A stretch of DNA of 54,372 bases, taken from positions 1-54,372 of the forward strand of contig CALXYM010000014.1 of assembly GCA_944392965.1 (NCBI GenBank), given 5' to 3'. Origin of the DNA: an uncultured Spirochaetaceae bacterium (GTDB lineage: Bacteria; Spirochaetota; Spirochaetia; Sphaerochaetales; Sphaerochaetaceae). A program made the position numbers and the translations under genes. A model generated the notes under the pieces. That model was not told the DNA's origin, did not search any database, and saw only the letters and a list, made by a program, of their open reading frames with translations. The stretch's first letter is position 1, and each line of letters begins with the position of its first letter. Positions 34,392 to 42,346 of the stretch are shown in pieces.

Positions 34392-35528
34392 ATGTTTAGA
34401 TTACTACGATTAGAATTTAAAAAAATAAAGAATTTCGAGGATCCTTTTATTTTAGATTTTACCGCATCTGATCGTATTATACAGGAAGAGAATGTCTCCT
34501 TGGTTTCTAAACCTATTTATTCTCAGAATGTAATGGCATTTGTCGGTATCAATGCGAGTGGAAAGACGACGGCATTAAGATTGATTAAAATGGCACTTTC
34601 CATTATCTGTGATAATAAAAGTATAGATCAGCTTGGAGCCATAAAAGATCTTTTTTCTGATGATTCTGTCATGGTAGCAGATTTCTTCCTAGATAGAGAT
34701 TTTTATAGGCTTTCTTCTCTCTTTGGAATACATAAAAGTGGTAATCTTATATTTAAAGATGAGAAAATATATAAAAAGAAAAGAAAGACATACAGGAAAT
34801 CCGATAGGTTTTCCTTTAAAGAAGATGAACTTTTTCTGTCACGTAGTCAGTTCTCTTCTTCTGTACTTTCTTTCCTAAAAGATGATGACAGTATTGTTAC
34901 TTCTTTGACAAAAGATGTTTCATGTATCCATCTTGATACACTGAATATTACAAATTTCAATTTTTTATTTTCCGATGGGCCTGTAAATCCTCTATACCTT
35001 TCTTTGCTGGATAAGTCTATTGAAAGTATTCAGCTAACCAACCATCAACAGCTGGATATCAAATTTAAAAACAGTGAGGAGATTCGGCAACTGGCCTCTC
35101 CGATAGGAGCGGAATTATATATCTCTTCTGGTACTATACGAGGAAGCCAGCTTTTGGACATGGCATCCTCTGTTCTATCTGAGGGTGGTTATCTTATCGT
35201 TGATGAGATAGAAAACCATTTAAATAAAAAACTTGTTCAGCTTCTGATTGATCTCTTTCAGGATAATGAGATAAATACGATAGGGGCGGTTTTAATATTC
35301 ACTACACATTACTCAGAACTTTTAGATTATGTTATCAGAAAAGATAGCATATATGTATTTCTTAAATCTGATTCAGGGAAATGTCTGCTATCAAGATACT
35401 CAGACCGTATAAAACGTAATGATATTAAAAAGAGTGATGTTCTTCTTTCAAATTTTATAGAAGGGACGGCTCCTTCTTATGAGGACATTCAAGAGATAAA
35501 GGAGTATATGTGCAGACAAAAGAAGTAA
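34392..35528 (+). CDS. AAA/ABC-type ATPase, first gene of a defence-like pair
   Basis: 378 residues of the SMC/RecF/OLD-like ATPases used in many anti-phage systems. Walker A GINASGKTT (about residues 52-60) follows an N-terminal strand pair (LEFKKIKNFEDPFILDF). Walker B is YLIVDEIENH, followed by a His-loop TTHYSELL. The C-terminus ends with a GTAPSYEDI segment, a feature I associate with RloB-linked ATPases. The stop overlaps the next gene by 19 nt. No nuclease or TOPRIM domain is fused; that role is probably taken by the partner. Confidence 0.8.
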   Translation: MFRLLRLEFKKIKNFEDPFILDFTASDRIIQEENVSLVSKPIYSQNVMAFVGINASGKTTALRLIKMALSIICDNKSIDQLGAIKDLFSDDSVMVADFFLDRDFYRLSSLFGIHKSGNLIFKDEKIYKKKRKTYRKSDRFSFKEDELFLSRSQFSSSVLSFLKDDDSIVTSLTKDVSCIHLDTLNITNFNFLFSDGPVNPLYLSLLDKSIESIQLTNHQQLDIKFKNSEEIRQLASPIGAELYISSGTIRGSQLLDMASSVLSEGGYLIVDEIENHLNKKLVQLLIDLFQDNEINTIGAVLIFTTHYSELLDYVIRKDSIYVFLKSDSGKCLLSRYSDRIKRNDIKKSDVLLSNFIEGTAPSYEDIQEIKEYMCRQKK

Positions 35529-36040
35529 GTTTTTCTGGTAAATATGTTCTCTGTCTTGCGGAAGGAGCTGCAGAAAGAGAGGTGATGGATATGCTGCTGG
35601 AACTAGATTTACTTCCATTTAATAGGGAGGATCTGGTAGGAAAGAAAATTCAGCGTCGCATGAGTGTTTCCGCAGTAGAAGAGAAATTCCTCTCTTTGAG
35701 TTACAAAAAACCTGTTGTGATTTTACGTATAATCGATTCTAGAAAAGAGTCTTTCAAATTAAGACGACAATATAAGGATAGATTTGAAGTCATAACAGTT
35801 ACTACTCATCCGGAAATAGAGATATTGTTGATATTAAGTAAGGGGGACTATAAGGATTACAGTAAGACTAAATCCCGAGAAAAACCGAGCGCTTACTGTA
35901 GTCGGTGTTATGGATATAAGAAAAATCAGGATGCTTTCTCTTCTTATATCATGCCAAACGACCTTGTAGAAGCAATAAGAAAGTATTCAAAAATGCGTGA
36001 ATTTAAAGATTTTTCATTAAGGTGGCTTCTGAACATATGA
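35510..36040 (+). CDS. RloB/TOPRIM-like partner protein
   Basis: 176 residues starting at GTG 35510, with AAAGGAG just upstream inside the ATPase gene. The N-terminal YVLCLAEGAAEREVMDML recalls the TOPRIM Glu motif, and ILRIIDSRKESFKL may supply the acidic Asp motif. TTHPEIEILLIL and a Cys-containing KPSAYCSRCYG follow. The layout matches small partners of AAA ATPases in RloB/AbiL/PARIS-like systems. The tight overlap argues that the two proteins act together. The family name is moderate; the gene-pair architecture is what is seen. Confidence 0.6.
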   Translation: MQTKEVSFSGKYVLCLAEGAAEREVMDMLLELDLLPFNREDLVGKKIQRRMSVSAVEEKFLSLSYKKPVVILRIIDSRKESFKLRRQYKDRFEVITVTTHPEIEILLILSKGDYKDYSKTKSREKPSAYCSRCYGYKKNQDAFSSYIMPNDLVEAIRKYSKMREFKDFSLRWLLNI

Positions 36041-36043
36041 TTT

Positions 36044-37810
36044 TTATTGTTCGGTTAACATCCTCCATAACGTTGTTCTACTGATTTGCAATCTTTTTGC
36101 TGTCGCTGACTGATTGCCACCTTCTTCTTCCAGAACCTTTTTTGCTATTTCTTTTTCAATTGACTTTAAACTTTGGTTCAGGGAGATAGGCTTATTCATT
36201 TCACTGTCGGAAACATAAAGAGCAAGCTTTTCTTTTTCTATCGTTTCTTTTACTGTTTGCGCATTTGCAATAGGTTCATTGGAATTGATTATCAGTTCTT
36301 TTGTAAACCGTTTGAATTGAGAGAAATTATTTGGCCAAGGATATTCTTTAATAATGTCCAGAGCTTCATTTGTCGCTCCAACCAATTGATGTGGAAACTC
36401 CATATTAAGAAGGCTGAGCAATCGATTGAACAATGAGGGTATACTATCTTTTTGGCTTCTTAATTCAGGTGTTTTTATGGAAACAGCGTTAAGGACATCC
36501 AAAAAAAGAGAATCGGTTTCTGATATCAGTTTTTCTGTCGTAGAGGAGAATATTATTCTATTCCTATTGCTTTCGTTTATGTCTCGCAGAATAGAAAGTA
36601 GGCTAGAGATTTTCTTTTTATCAAGTTTGTTTATATTTGATAGATACAGGGTCTGATCCAGTGTGGAGAGAGGTGATGTTGTATGATTCATCAGATAATC
36701 CCAGCTTTTATCGTTTATGAGAGAACAATCAATGTGGATGAATGGGTTGTATTTTAGATTGCAATTCAGATAAATATAGTATGCAAGGGACTCTTTTCCC
36801 GTTCCATTCTCTCCATATATTAAAATAGGAATATTGTTTGATAATGTTTTTTCTATTTTTGTTTTGATTAGATTTGCTGTGCCGGCAAGGAAAAACAGAC
36901 TACTGTAGTATTTACTTTCAATTTCCTGGGTTGCGAGAAACTTTATCCCAGGTTTTTCCATCTGATATGCATTTTTCCTTTCCGTATAAAAAAAAGCATA
37001 GTAAATATTACTATCGATTAGAATTGATTTTGCCCTTATTGAATAAATGATTCCATCTCTTATTCGCACGAGTTTTTTTTCACTTATGGAAGAAAGATCT
37101 TCAATCTCAGGCTTCAGCATATCAATGATTTTGGAATTCATATCCTCTAGAGATGAAAGTAGTACATGCTTATTGCTGTCAAATACAATTGTTTTCCCGA
37201 TCTGGCTTATGAACAGTGTCCGAAGCAGGGAATTCTCGTTTTTCAATGTCCTCATTGATTTATATAAGTCTATTGCTTTTATGAATGTATTTCGGACACT
37301 GCTGTCACTAGAGGTGATTAAAAAGGAATTAAGTCCTAATTCCCTTGCAGCCTTGTCTGCAAACATATCACAGAGAACAGCATGGTAGTTTTTGCATTTT
37401 TTCAGTATTTCTGTGGCTTCCTGTGATGATGGAATTCTATAGCATTCCAAGGTACACCCTATTATTGATGCAATTTGTGTGGCTCTTTGACTTACATCTG
37501 CAACAGATACGATTGCAACTTTTTTATTTGATGCATTTGCAAGATTCATCGCATGAAGGATGTCGTCTGTCGAGATTTCAACACCTATGACAGGAATGCT
37601 GAGTTCTTCTCTTAGCAGATCTGCAGTCGCTCCCCTTGAAATCACCATGTCGAAGTTTCCGTGGAAATTTGCTTGGGCTATTTCTAACCCTTCCTGTAAG
37701 TCTCCTGTGAATGGAATCAGGTCAATTTCTTTAAACTCTTCCACGAGTTTTATCATTTGCATTTTCATTGCTTCATATGGCGCGATACCTAAGATTCTAA
37801 TTTTTTCCAT
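36044..37810 (-). CDS. PrpR-like regulator with degenerate sigma-54 ATPase domain
   Basis: 588 residues. Residues 1-185 are a PrpR_N-type sensory domain (FDMVISRGATADLL, IPVIGVEIS). A coiled or PAS-like middle follows. The AAA+ domain keeps Walker A GENGTGKE (333-340), but the GAFTGA loop that contacts sigma-54 is absent and the Walker B position reads TLYLSN (387-392) instead of LFLDE. The C-terminus (about 555-588) is a Fis-type HTH (GNQSATAKRLQISRTTLWRM). It is divergent from the DUF1537-LarA operon and probably controls it without sigma-54. No -24/-12 promoter was found there. Confidence 0.88.
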   Translation of the reverse strand: MEKIRILGIAPYEAMKMQMIKLVEEFKEIDLIPFTGDLQEGLEIAQANFHGNFDMVISRGATADLLREELSIPVIGVEISTDDILHAMNLANASNKKVAIVSVADVSQRATQIASIIGCTLECYRIPSSQEATEILKKCKNYHAVLCDMFADKAARELGLNSFLITSSDSSVRNTFIKAIDLYKSMRTLKNENSLLRTLFISQIGKTIVFDSNKHVLLSSLEDMNSKIIDMLKPEIEDLSSISEKKLVRIRDGIIYSIRAKSILIDSNIYYAFFYTERKNAYQMEKPGIKFLATQEIESKYYSSLFFLAGTANLIKTKIEKTLSNNIPILIYGENGTGKESLAYYIYLNCNLKYNPFIHIDCSLINDKSWDYLMNHTTSPLSTLDQTLYLSNINKLDKKKISSLLSILRDINESNRNRIIFSSTTEKLISETDSLFLDVLNAVSIKTPELRSQKDSIPSLFNRLLSLLNMEFPHQLVGATNEALDIIKEYPWPNNFSQFKRFTKELIINSNEPIANAQTVKETIEKEKLALYVSDSEMNKPISLNQSLKSIEKEIAKKVLEEEGGNQSATAKRLQISRTTLWRMLTEQ

Positions 37811-37894
37811 ATATTCCTTTTTGTTTTAGTTTATCAGGATTTATATAAAAAACCAAGTTTTGTTTCAAAATTAAACATAAATTTTTAAAATTCG

Positions 37895-37923
37895 TTGCTG
37901 TATGCTCTAAAAACGGCTGTTAT
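37895..37923 (+). promoter_or_regulatory. Possible sigma-70 promoter of the DUF1537-LarA operon
   Basis: TTGCTG (37895-37900), 17-base spacer, TGTTAT (37918-37923). No sigma-54 consensus (GG-10 nt-GC) is seen in the gap. Confidence 0.45.
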
Positions 37924-37973
37924 CATAATTTTTAAAGAGAAACTGTTTATTTTTACAACAAAGGAGAGATGCA

Positions 37974-39215
37974 ATGGTAAGGCTTTTAATAATTGCAGAT
38001 GACTTTACTGGTGCTTTAGATACAGGGGTGCAGTTTGCTCATTATGATGGAGAAGTGAAAATTATTGCTAATCCCGACTGCAGTTTTTCTTCTATTTCCC
38101 CCAATATACCTGTTGTTGTAATAAATGCAGATACGAGACATCTGAATAAAGATGACTCTTATAAGGTTGTATTTGATATAGCAAAAAGAGCTAGCGATAG
38201 CGGATTCACACATTTTTACAAGAAAGTTGATTCTGGACTCAGGGGAAACATCGGTAGTGAATTAAGTGCCCTGCTTGATGCCCTTGATGTCAAATCTCTT
38301 TATTTTGCACCGGCTTATCCAAAATTGAAAAGAGTTACTGTAGATGGCTATCAGTATATTGATGGAAGACTGCTTTCCCAGAGTGTTTTTGCAAAGGATC
38401 TATTTAATCCTCCTTCTTCTGACAATGTCATAGAAATCATTGCAACCCAAACCGATAAGAACATTGTATTGGATTCCTTTGATGGAGAGGGGATTCATGT
38501 ATTTAATGCAAAGAATGATGAGGAACTTGAGCATATTGCGAAAAAACTTGGAACTGATGGGTTGAGAGCTAGTGCGGGATGTGCTGGTTTTGCATCTCAT
38601 ATGGCGAAAATTCTAGGATTTAAGGAGACTCCAAAAGTCACTCCAGTCATTAATAGTCCGATTCTAATCGTATGTGGAAGTATCAATCCGATATCTATGA
38701 GACAGATGGATAGGGTCATGGAGTCGGGAGTTATGCGTTTTTCCCTCTCGACATCACAGAAAACAGATCCTGACTGGATAAGAAGCGAGGAGTGTTCTTC
38801 TTTGATTTCTGATTGCGTTGATGAAGTTTCCAAAAATGGATGTGCGATTATTGATGTGAATGGAAGTAAGAAAATAACAGAAGAGGATGAAGAGGCACAG
38901 AAATATGGGCTTACCATCAATACATTAAGGCAGAATATTGCCAATCTTCTCGGCAACCTTACCAAACGTTTAATCGATAGTGGTCTTGATATAATTGTTT
39001 ATTCAATTGGGGGAGATACATTAAAAGCAATCATTAATGCTTTATCCATAAATGAGATCAATGCGGTATGTGAACTTGATGCAGGTGTTGTCCTTAACAG
39101 TATCTCCTATGAGGATAAGTCTTTATTTGTAATCTCAAAATCAGGTGGTTTTGGAGATGAAAATACCGTTCTTAATTTTTTAAATGCTTTAAAGGGGGCA
39201 AGGAATGTTGTCTAG
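37974..39215 (+). CDS. Four-carbon acid sugar kinase (DUF1537/OtnK type)
   Basis: 413 residues. DUF1537 kinases phosphorylate four-carbon acids such as D-threonate or D-erythronate at C4. Family motifs: LLIIADDFTGALDTG at the N-terminus, KVDSGLRGNIGSEL in the substrate site, and GGDTLKAIIN near the ATP site. GGAGAG lies before the ATG. It is the first gene of the 12-gene operon and overlaps the next by 11 nt. With the PdxA2 homologue four genes on, it would form the DtnK-PdxA2 pair. Confidence 0.93.
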   Translation: MVRLLIIADDFTGALDTGVQFAHYDGEVKIIANPDCSFSSISPNIPVVVINADTRHLNKDDSYKVVFDIAKRASDSGFTHFYKKVDSGLRGNIGSELSALLDALDVKSLYFAPAYPKLKRVTVDGYQYIDGRLLSQSVFAKDLFNPPSSDNVIEIIATQTDKNIVLDSFDGEGIHVFNAKNDEELEHIAKKLGTDGLRASAGCAGFASHMAKILGFKETPKVTPVINSPILIVCGSINPISMRQMDRVMESGVMRFSLSTSQKTDPDWIRSEECSSLISDCVDEVSKNGCAIIDVNGSKKITEEDEEAQKYGLTINTLRQNIANLLGNLTKRLIDSGLDIIVYSIGGDTLKAIINALSINEINAVCELDAGVVLNSISYEDKSLFVISKSGGFGDENTVLNFLNALKGARNVV

Positions 39216-40362
39216 TTATAGTTTGGTTCTTCCTAATAAGGTCTTTTCCGGAGAAGAGGCGCTTTCTCAGCTTTGTGGAATCTTAGCATCCGAAAAATCA
39301 AAAAAGGTTGCAGTGTTCACAGACTCTGGAATAAAGAAAGCTGGTGTCCTCGAATTGGTTCTGAATTATTTGGACAAGGCCGAGGTTGTGTATGAAATCT
39401 TTGATGATATAGTACCAGAGCCGACTTATATGCAGGTTCAGCAGATTGTATCCAACTGCGAGTCTTATGGTGCAGATTTTATCATTGCAATCGGAGGGGG
39501 AAGTGTCATGGACACAGCAAAACTTGCAAGTGTACTCTCTGGCAGTTCTTATACTGTGAAAGATCTCCTTCAGAATCCCTTGTCCTCATCGAAAAAGATT
39601 AAGACACTTATGATTCCTACAACAGCTGGAACGGGTGCGGAAGCAACTCCAAATGCAATTGTCGCGGTTCCCGAAGAACAATTAAAGGTTGGAATTGTAA
39701 ATCCTGATATGGTAAGTGACTACGTGATCCTTGATTATAGAATGGTTGAGAATCTACCATTACCAATTGCAGCCTCTACGGGGATTGATGCTCTTTGTCA
39801 TGCCATTGAGTGCTTTACAAGTAATAAAGCAAACCCATTCAGCGATTTGTTTGCTCTGAATTCTCTGTCCTTGATTTTGAAGAATATAGAAAAAGCCTCC
39901 CTCGACAGAGAAGCAAAGAAAGAGAAAGAAAATATGCTTATCGCAAGTTTTTATGCGGGGATAGCTATAACGAGTTCTGGGACAACTGCTGTACATGCTC
40001 TTAGTTACCCTCTTGGAGGTCGTTATCATATTGCACATGGGATATCAAATGCGATCCTGCTGATGCCTGTCATGAGATTCAATGAAGATGTATGTTCCCC
40101 TCGTCTTGCAGACGCTTATGATTTTTGTTTTGGAGAAGCATCAGGAAAGGATGAAAAATGGAAGAGTAGTTATATGCTCTCACGAATGGGAGAGATTGTA
40201 AAAAATCTTAATATTCCGACGTCTTTAGCTGGGTTTGGTGTAACTTTAGACGATCTTGATGATCTGGTCGATGCAGGAATGAAGGTGACTCGTTTGCTTA
40301 ATAACAATATGAAAAAAGTCTCGAAAGAAGATGCAAGAAAAATTTATATGGAGGTATTGTGA
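39205..40362 (+). CDS. Iron-containing alcohol dehydrogenase
   Basis: 385 residues, group III ADH. NAD(P) loop GGGSVMDTAKL, TTAGTGAEATPNA, and the metal-binding Asp/His set in GIDALCHAIE and ALSYPLGGRYHIAHG. AGGGGGCAAGG precedes the ATG. It overlaps the following DapA-like gene. It probably reduces an aldehyde released in the pathway, or oxidises an alcohol. Confidence 0.94.
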   Translation: MLSSYSLVLPNKVFSGEEALSQLCGILASEKSKKVAVFTDSGIKKAGVLELVLNYLDKAEVVYEIFDDIVPEPTYMQVQQIVSNCESYGADFIIAIGGGSVMDTAKLASVLSGSSYTVKDLLQNPLSSSKKIKTLMIPTTAGTGAEATPNAIVAVPEEQLKVGIVNPDMVSDYVILDYRMVENLPLPIAASTGIDALCHAIECFTSNKANPFSDLFALNSLSLILKNIEKASLDREAKKEKENMLIASFYAGIAITSSGTTAVHALSYPLGGRYHIAHGISNAILLMPVMRFNEDVCSPRLADAYDFCFGEASGKDEKWKSSYMLSRMGEIVKNLNIPTSLAGFGVTLDDLDDLVDAGMKVTRLLNNNMKKVSKEDARKIYMEVL

Positions 40363-41270
40363 TGAAGGCAGAAGATATTAAAGGAATAATCTGTCCTGTT
40401 CTTACTCCGATGAATGCGGATGAGAGCATTAACTATGATGGATTAAGAAGTGAGATTGACAGACTGATCAATGCTGGAATATATGGGATTTTCTGTTTCG
40501 GTACAAATGGAGAAAACTACGCCCTTAATGAGGAAGAAAAGATAAAGATTCTGGAAGTTACGATTGAACATGTTAAAGGTAGGGTTCCTGTTTATGCTGG
40601 AACTGGTTGTATTACAACTTCTGATACAGTTCGTCTCAGCAGGAAGGCACAGAGCTTAGGTGCAGATGCCCTTTCAATCATTACTCCTAGTTTCGCAGCT
40701 GCTTCACAAGAGGAACTTTATCGGCATTATGTGGAAGTTGGAAAAAATGTTGATATTCCAATTGTTATTTATAATATTCCCGCAAGAACAGGGAACAAGG
40801 TTCTTCCTGAAACCCTTAGAAGACTTGCCAAAGATGTTGATGTCATAATGGGAGCTAAGGATTCCAGTGGAGATTGGGATAACCTTCTCTCTTACATAGA
40901 AATGACAAAGGATCTTGATAAGGATTTCAGGGTTCTTTCAGGTAATGATTCTCTTATCCTTAAATGCCTGGAGAACGGAGGAAAGGGGGGTATTGCAGGC
41001 TGTGCAAATGTTTATCCCAAGACGCTTCTTTCAATTTATAACAAGTTTAAAGAGGGTGATTTGGCTGGTGCAAAGGAGGCACAGGAAGCCATTGTTCCTT
41101 TCCGAGCTGTATTCAAATATGGAAATCCGAATACGATTATCAAGAAAGCAGCTGCATTGCTTGGCTATCCTGTCGGAGATTTAAGAAAACCGTTCAACTA
41201 TCTTTCAGAAGAGGGGATGACTGCTCTTCGTGCTGTTCTTGAAGAGAATGAAAAGAGAGGTCTTAAATGA
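40362..41270 (+). CDS. DapA-family lyase (dihydrodipicolinate synthase-like)
   Basis: About 302 residues, a class I aldolase fold. Schiff-base K167 in MGAKDSSGDW (numbering from the GTG at 40359), catalytic Y138 in IVIYNIPART, and GTNGENYAL in the pyruvate-binding region. ATG 40362 is favoured over the GTG three bases earlier. In a catabolic operon like this it is more likely an aldolase or dehydratase of a keto-acid than a lysine gene. Overlaps PdxA2 by 4 nt. Confidence 0.92.
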   Translation: MKAEDIKGIICPVLTPMNADESINYDGLRSEIDRLINAGIYGIFCFGTNGENYALNEEEKIKILEVTIEHVKGRVPVYAGTGCITTSDTVRLSRKAQSLGADALSIITPSFAAASQEELYRHYVEVGKNVDIPIVIYNIPARTGNKVLPETLRRLAKDVDVIMGAKDSSGDWDNLLSYIEMTKDLDKDFRVLSGNDSLILKCLENGGKGGIAGCANVYPKTLLSIYNKFKEGDLAGAKEAQEAIVPFRAVFKYGNPNTIIKKAAALLGYPVGDLRKPFNYLSEEGMTALRAVLEENEKRGLK

Positions 41271-42346
41271 GCAAGATAGGAAAACCGATACTTGGAATCA
41301 CAATGGGGGATCCGTTTGGCAATGGACCGGAGATAACAGTTAAGGCTCTTTCTCATAAGGATTTATATGATAGATGCAGACCTTTGGTGATTGGTGATTT
41401 GGCAAGTATGAACTATGCTGTGGCCGTAAGCGGACTTGAGCTGACTGTAAATCCTGTCAAAGAGGTTTGTGAGGCAAAATTCCAATATGGCGTTATTGAT
41501 GTATTGGATCTTGCTCTTGTAAAGCTTTCTGATATCCCCGGAGATGCAAAGGAGCGAAAACCTTTTCATTTGGGAGCAACGGTCCTTGGAGGAGAAGCTG
41601 CTTTTCAGTATGTTGTCAAAGTTATAGACCTTGCTATGGCAGGAAAGGTGGATGCAACTGTTACCAATGCTTTAAGTAAAGAAGCAATAAACATGGCAGG
41701 ACATCATTATAGTGGTCATACCGAGATTTATGCCGATTATACCCATACAAAAAAGTACACGATGATGCTTGCTCATGAGGAATTGAGGGTTGTACATGTC
41801 AGTACCCATGTCTCAATGAGAGAAGCTTGTGACAGGGTGAAAAAGGATAGGGTTCTTGATGTAATCAGAATAGCGAATGATGGTTGTAAGTCGCTTGGTA
41901 TAAAAGAGCCGAAAATCGCAGTAGCGGGATTAAATCCCCACTGTGGAGAGAATGGAATGTTCGGCAGAGAAGAAATCGAGGAGATACAACCAGCAATAGA
42001 TGAAGCATTGAAAGAAGGAATAATTATTCCTGATAAGGCGCCGACTCCGGCCGATAGTGTTTTCTCAAAAGCATTAGGCGGGTGGTATGACATCGTTGTA
42101 TGCATGTATCATGATCAGGGGCATATCCCTTTGAAAGTCAAAGGATTTGTTTATAATAAGGAACTTAAAAAGTGGGATGCTGTCGCTGGGGTTAATGTTA
42201 CACTCGGGCTTCCCATTATTCGAGCCAGTGTCGACCATGGTACAGGATATGGACATGCTGGAAGTGGGGATGCAAATGAGATTAGCCTGATAAATGCAAT
42301 GGATTATGCTATTAGGATGGCAAATGCAAGGAGTGAGAATGAGTAA
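41267..42346 (+). CDS. PdxA2-type 4-phospho-hydroxyacid dehydrogenase
   Basis: 359 residues of the PdxA family. GITMGDPFGNGPE at the N-terminus, metal-binding His in MAGHHYSGHTE, GLNPHCGENGMFG, and HDQGHIPLKV near the C-terminus. PdxA2 next to a DUF1537 kinase typically oxidises and decarboxylates D-threonate 4-phosphate (or a similar acid) to dihydroxyacetone phosphate. No other pyridoxal synthesis gene is nearby, supporting a catabolic role. Confidence 0.93.
   Translation: MSKIGKPILGITMGDPFGNGPEITVKALSHKDLYDRCRPLVIGDLASMNYAVAVSGLELTVNPVKEVCEAKFQYGVIDVLDLALVKLSDIPGDAKERKPFHLGATVLGGEAAFQYVVKVIDLAMAGKVDATVTNALSKEAINMAGHHYSGHTEIYADYTHTKKYTMMLAHEELRVVHVSTHVSMREACDRVKKDRVLDVIRIANDGCKSLGIKEPKIAVAGLNPHCGENGMFGREEIEEIQPAIDEALKEGIIIPDKAPTPADSVFSKALGGWYDIVVCMYHDQGHIPLKVKGFVYNKELKKWDAVAGVNVTLGLPIIRASVDHGTGYGHAGSGDANEISLINAMDYAIRMANARSENE

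Follow-up and report, generated by a model that had tools for sequence, protein, structure and literature searches.

PrpR is an activator of sigma-54 promoters and bears the GAFTGA motif. TyrR, DhaR, HupR and the NtrC proteins of R. capsulatus and Caulobacter no longer have GAFTGA and work with sigma-70 promoters, and VpsR is listed alongside them (PMC3162934, PMC10274813). A survey of Clostridiales counts 490 activators, of which 355 plus 100 carry GAFTGA or a working variant of it, and the section of that survey considered here does not discuss a group like the one described below (PMC6615313).

Here we analyze a regulator gene from an uncultured Spirochaetaceae bacterium. It lies in a contig of 54,372 nucleotides (CALXYM010000014.1 of assembly GCA_944392965.1), and this whole stretch of DNA is referred to as the window. 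Our results suggest that the encoded protein is rather likely a one-component, ligand-gated regulator of a divergent acid-sugar operon, descended from sigma-54 activators and acting at sigma-70 promoters.

The regulator keeps its sensor and DNA-binding domains and has lost the sigma-54 loop

The regulator gene lies on the minus strand, with the following features.

36044..37810, minus strand: regulator with PrpR_N, degenerate AAA and Fis HTH domains, 588 aa, ATG start (open reading frame, Pfam, alignment)
37250..37729, minus strand: PrpR_N ligand-sensor domain, residues 28-187 (Pfam, E 3.6e-40)
36791..36814, minus strand: Walker A motif GENGTGKE, residues 333-340, kept (alignment, invariant columns)
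36653..36685, minus strand: shortened L1 region, residues 376-386, from which ELFG..GAFTGA is deleted (alignment)
36635..36640, minus strand: Ser391-Asn392 in place of the Walker B acids (alignment; in the model, a beta strand ends here)
36062..36169, minus strand: Fis-type HTH_8 DNA-binding domain, residues 548-583 (Pfam)

Scores of 137.7 bits for PrpR_N (cut-off 29.1) and 42.3 bits for HTH_8 (cut-off 22) give the protein the architecture of a PrpR_N one-component regulator, and its PrpR_N domain carries the SRGAT motif that is common to intact relatives in the alignment. An AAA+ sigma-54 interaction domain was recognized by homology: Sigma54_activ_2 matched residues 315-426 (E 2.1e-12), Sigma54_activat matched partially (E 1.5e-9) and AAA_lid_14 matched residues 451-528. 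The best NCBIfam match was PrpR (TIGR02329) at 104 bits, below the cut-off of 499, and the second best was DhaR (E 2.5e-28; 99 bits against a cut-off of 551).

Motif losses were read by aligning the protein to intact activators encoded in its own genome and in related ones. The ELFG..GAFTGA..G stretch is absent, with 14 alignment columns missing in L1 and about 9 more in the L2 region. In Walker B, TIFLDEI of intact relatives reads TLYLSNI, with S-N in place of D-E. SLFLDVLNAV replaces the arginine-finger block FRxDLYYRL, and WPGNVREL of sensor II has become WPNNFSQF. An earlier note on this DNA had described a PrpR-like regulator devoid of GAFTGA and of the Walker B acids, and the alignment bears this out. 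The same note held that only the PrpR sensor, Walker A and the Fis HTH remain; all three are kept, but "only" was too strong, since an AAA+ fold and its lid remain as well. The AlphaFold model retains the AAA+ fold with a mean pLDDT of 85, while its pTM of only 0.47 leaves the arrangement of the domains unsure. Foldseek searches with this model returned the AAA+ domains of NtrC1 (TM score to the target of about 0.7), NtrX and VpsR, and matched PrpR_N in 2q5c and 2pju.

The regulator belongs to a clade of degenerate proteins in two phyla

A query of genome contigs with the single sequence returned no relative; an alignment query returned relatives. Genomes of the same genus or family contain two orthologues at 50-56% identity, which show the same losses, and five relatives at 27-29%. 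The losses recur in 15 aligned members, all of one clade, and among 25 further family proteins none has GAFTGA or the D-E pair of Walker B, and 24 have Walker A. Named carriers are Clostridium symbiosum, C. ragsdalei, C. citroniae and Marinilactibacillus piezotolerans, and uncultured Lachnospiraceae carry the regulator too; among 397 genomes from the C. symbiosum family, 39 have it.

Since catalytic residues have been lost, the gene could be a decaying pseudogene or the product of a sequencing error. However, the frame is full length, the two close orthologues share the losses, Walker A, the HTH, synteny and the operator described below are conserved, and the subfamily has tens of members in two phyla. 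Decay or error is thus exceedingly improbable, and the degenerate regulator is, as judged from this conservation, a conserved subfamily.

In a tree computed without the columns from L1 to the arginine finger, the 15 degenerate members formed one clade (100/100), whose sister is a partly degenerate Paenibacillus protein (100/99). GAFTGA, L1 and the Walker B acids have also been lost, and Walker A kept, in PrpR_N proteins outside this main clade, namely L040 and L041 (genomes G167 and G179) and L066. Because L040/L041 and L066 branch apart, among intact proteins, these losses appear to be separate ones, although L066 is a long branch of unsure placement. The intact or degenerate label changes three times on the tree, and the well-supported branches force two of these changes. 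Judged from lipoprotein style and genome sizes, the genus of the source bacterium probably falls within the spirochaetes, so the regulator was likely transferred between phyla.

The regulator faces an acid-sugar operon

The target operon and the region that separates it from the regulator gene are composed as follows.

37811..37973, no strand: divergent promoter region between the regulator gene and dtnK, 163 bp, without GG-N10-GC
37974..39215, plus strand: dtnK, kinase of four-carbon acid sugars (DUF1537; DtnK-like), with which the target operon begins
39205..40362, plus strand: iron-containing alcohol dehydrogenase
40359..41270, plus strand: DapA-family aldolase/lyase
41267..42346, plus strand: PdxA2-like 4-phosphate dehydrogenase

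A role in the catabolism of four-carbon acid sugars is assigned to this operon because its kinase and PdxA2 families are known. The same four genes are divergent to the regulator at the loci of the two nearest orthologues and also in three clostridia, C. symbiosum, C. ragsdalei and C. citroniae; more distant members of the same family are linked to the same genes plus extra ones, and many clade members are, like the regulator of the window, divergent to a DUF1537-kinase operon. Two loci of the G035 subclade (L013 and L016) have additional genes inserted after dtnK and before the alcohol dehydrogenase. These include ORFs that resemble lipoproteins and permeases, as well as a shared one of about 390 aa, which suggests import of a larger sugar-acid compound.

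On the other side, convergent with the regulator gene, the plus strand at 34392-36040 holds an AAA_21 ATPase gene with an AbiLi match (E 1.5e-33), followed by an overlapping 176-aa ORF that matches no family. The two are probably an AbiL-like abortive-infection pair.

Sigma-54 promoters are absent from the target region

The earlier note had seen no sigma-54 promoter before the target operon. We looked for a -24/-12 promoter upstream of 37974 and found none: GG-N9..11-GC does not occur on either strand of 37811-37973. This holds more widely, as intact GAFTGA-bearing relatives are mostly flanked by -24/-12 promoters, whereas the degenerate clade is not. Scored with an approximate -24/-12 matrix over loci that are related, the best site near the gene had a median of 13.2 bits for canonical PrpR_N regulators and 5.0 bits for degenerate ones (Mann-Whitney p 1e-4). 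Two scores above 11 bits were set aside, one at L060 that lies inside the dtnK coding sequence and one at L058 that lies downstream of the regulator.

The earlier note had also proposed a search for rpoN, and the genome of the window proved to contain an intact gene whose product has all three domains, AID, CBD and DBD. The same genome encodes four intact activator ATPase domains, one of which adjoins an 18-bit sigma-54 promoter. With this machinery in the cell, the regulator might still be a sigma-54 activator that tolerates the loss of GAFTGA, or might form hetero-oligomers with one of the intact activators. Against this stand the missing -24/-12 promoter at the target and the loss of L1, Walker B and the arginine fingers together. 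Moreover, of 49 carrier genomes, 24 lack any rpoN match, 3 give short fragments only and 22 a full match; some of the genomes without a match may be incomplete, but one of them measures 6.9 Mb with a contig of more than 4.9 Mb. We therefore regard continued service at sigma-54 promoters as very unlikely.

A predicted palindromic operator accompanies the regulator

Phylogenetic footprinting of divergent promoter regions revealed the palindrome GTTTCANNNTRAAAC, and a 15-bp palindromic operator, GTTTCANNNTGAAAC, was predicted at the loci of the degenerate clade. In the window, it was mapped together with a candidate promoter.

37862..37876, no strand: operator O1 GTTTCAAAATTAAAC, best match of the window, centered at about -64 from the predicted start and conserved in relatives
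37945..37959, no strand: possible weak second operator GTTTATTTTTACAAC, with 4 mismatches, at about +19
37898..37926, plus strand: candidate sigma-70 promoter CTGTAT-N17-TATCAT with an extended -10 (TGT) and a weak -35, its -10 lying 52 bp from the O1 center

The operator pattern was fixed before the Firmicutes loci were fetched. Thirteen loci contained 21 sites at no more than 2 mismatches, compared to 0.37 in shuffles, and held-out loci (fetched later or unused for reading the motif) contained 7 sites at no more than 1 mismatch, compared to 0.03 by chance. At least one site was found in 35 of 40 clade loci. Sites numbered 71 in 11.5 kb at loci of the degenerate clade and 6 in 12.8 kb at those of canonical relatives. 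The regulator very probably binds such 15-bp palindromes, as far as sequence conservation can tell.

Across the genome of the window, a strict operator search gave 22 matches and a reversed-pattern control gave 20. As the operator is not enriched, the regulon appears to be local and no wider one is claimed. Since the operator is not unique in the genome, the site could serve another regulator, with the degenerate protein acting elsewhere. Yet the site tracks the regulator gene across two phyla and in front of different target operons (L061, L062, L015). Apart from the two nearest, canonical relatives seldom have it, and we saw no second regulator gene that the loci share. We consider this explanation improbable, if less so than continued action at sigma-54 promoters.

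Individual loci differ in how many operators they hold. The clade member L062, which faces a different operon with no DUF1537 kinase match, has three operator copies. Up to three are found upstream in a subclade composed of L013, L014, L016 and L036, in which one operator falls within the first dtnK codons (about nucleotides 5-22), so that the N-terminus of the kinase there encodes an operator. Another exact match to GTTTCANNNTRAAAC in the genome of the window (G000), at positions 206-220 of contig C18 (L146), lies inside the opening codons of a 366-aa ORF close to the contig end and is possibly a second target.

The operator is shared with GAFTGA-bearing relatives

The nearest canonical PrpR_N relatives, L140 (genome G261) and L141 (genome G116), bear GAFTGA and have paired operator sites at their loci. 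Measured from the -12 of clear sigma-54 promoters, TGGCATAATTATTGCA and TGGCACCCTTATTGCA, the two pairs are located 134/212 and 151/169 bp upstream, and the second promoter precedes a PdxA2-like gene. One of the two genomes has only 10 operator sites in 3.1 Mb, two of them at the locus of the regulator. These sequences are most simply explained by an ancestral operator and sensor, with the class of the core promoter exchanged as the motor was lost. The operator would then be older than the switch to sigma-70, and the nearest GAFTGA-bearing relatives would use it as an upstream enhancer.

Operator and predicted promoter are held at a fixed distance

Sigma-70 promoters were predicted with matrices drawn from general knowledge, and since the loci are related, the p values overstate their independence. 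In the first set of loci, a distance of 51 bp from the operator center to the start of the predicted -10 scored above every other offset, and 0 of 300 rotated nulls reached its value. The same offset came out on top when 23 new loci were scanned, with a score of 82 at 50-52 bp compared to at most 20 in 200 nulls; as the null maximum over all offsets reached up to 94, this test concerns the offset named beforehand. Peaks at -3, 24 and -13 were set aside, since the operator itself holds promoter-like hexamers.

When each locus was represented by its best promoter that does not overlap an operator, 13 of 27 lay at 50-52 bp (null 3%) and 19 of 27 at 41, 51 or 62 bp, give or take 1 bp (null mean 12%, maximum 33%). 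These three offsets place the operator center at about -52, -62 or -73, in steps of one helical turn. Several of the promoters at a fixed distance are near consensus (TTGAAA-N17-TATTAT), and of the 30 loci whose promoter is phase-locked, 16 have a downstream operator at no more than 2 mismatches. The predicted promoter of the window itself is weak (7.3 bits with the extended -10) and falls below the cut-off of the best-promoter and downstream-operator counts. The G035 subclade fits another layout, with sites at about -69, -17 and +37.

Helical phasing is a mark of proteins that touch RNA polymerase, such as class I activators and GalR. The earlier note had proposed that the protein has probably become a sigma-70 regulator or a ligand-gated repressor. 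Three independent lines favor the sigma-70 part of this proposal: the phased operator, the lack of -24/-12 promoters at the regulator and its orthologues, as opposed to most intact relatives, and the carriers without an rpoN match.

Proposed mode of action

We propose that the regulator binds ATP without hydrolyzing it, the nucleotide serving the assembly of an oligomer, and that a pathway metabolite bound by PrpR_N would act as the switch. Placed at about -62, or one turn off at -52 or -73, it would touch the sigma-70 RNA polymerase and most likely activate. Where another operator is present at about +30 to +75, the protein may bridge both sites and repress in the absence of ligand.

The sign of regulation is probably that of an activator or a dual regulator, as predicted from the layout of the sites. 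The fixed operator position favors activation through contact with RNA polymerase and ranks it above the pure repression that is suggested by operators near the dtnK start, while the downstream operators make looping repression possible, additionally or instead. A pure repressor, relieved by ligand, would bridge -62 and about +30 to +75 or cover the sigma-70 promoter. The 16 phase-locked loci with downstream sites, some inside the first dtnK codons, are in line with it, as are the G035 subclade with a site between -35 and -10 and the many promoters near consensus, a strength that an activated promoter would not need; TyrR, moreover, is a known repressor of sigma-54-activator descent. However, about half of the phase-locked loci have upstream sites only, which offer no steric block to the polymerase, and contact activation requires just such an exact -62 position and whole turns to the -10. 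Whole-turn spacing is also seen in contact repression of the GalR type. Pure repression is possible, and we rather doubt it.

A wider scenario is promoter-class switching within one regulator family, in which sensor and DNA site are kept and the polymerase is changed. The sigma-54 enhancer would have become an operator phased at sigma-70 promoters, and the AAA+ domain, still binding ATP but dead for hydrolysis, would be kept for assembly; we give this scenario somewhat better than even chances. Because the intact sisters share the operator at sigma-54 promoters, the shift from ATP-driven activation to recruitment or repression becomes testable, and so does the reason for which an AAA+ domain dead for hydrolysis is retained. 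The operator permits regulon prediction for the degenerate PrpR_N clade. Domain-based naming easily yields "sigma-54 dependent", which would be wrong for this clade.

Comparison with known systems

Our literature searches found no description of this PrpR_N subfamily, its operator, the phased sigma-70 layout or an operator-conserved promoter switch, and no paper that names DUF1537 and PrpR together. The kind of regulator is already known; these four elements, not found described, appear to be new.

The regulator resembles PrpR of E. coli and Salmonella in its PrpR_N sensor, AAA+ domain and Fis HTH, and differs from it in the loss of GAFTGA. DhaR has another sensor architecture, and the regulator described here differs from it in carrying PrpR_N. 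The likeness to DhaR extends to function, as DhaR at dhaKLM controls the uptake and phosphorylation of a small sugar. E. coli DhaR has likewise lost GAFTGA and is described as sigma-70 dependent (PMC3162934).

With TyrR, HupR, VpsR and NtrC of R. capsulatus and Caulobacter, the regulator shares the loss of the sigma-54 loop, and these proteins act or are thought to act at sigma-70 promoters. They have other sensors and another operator, and the likeness covers the loss of the loop. L040/L041 and L066 share PrpR_N, the losses of GAFTGA and Walker B and the retained Walker A, but they branch elsewhere in the tree.

In layout, GalR at gal and CRP at class I promoters offer a parallel, since the centers of their operators lie near -61, in helical register with the promoter, and GalR also has a downstream operator. 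This is an analogy of layout only, as the protein families are unrelated to the regulator. Whereas the earlier cases of loop loss are single regulators, here a whole subfamily in two phyla combines loss of the loop and of the hydrolysis motifs with a recognizable operator and promoter layout, and its intact sisters have the same operator at sigma-54 promoters.
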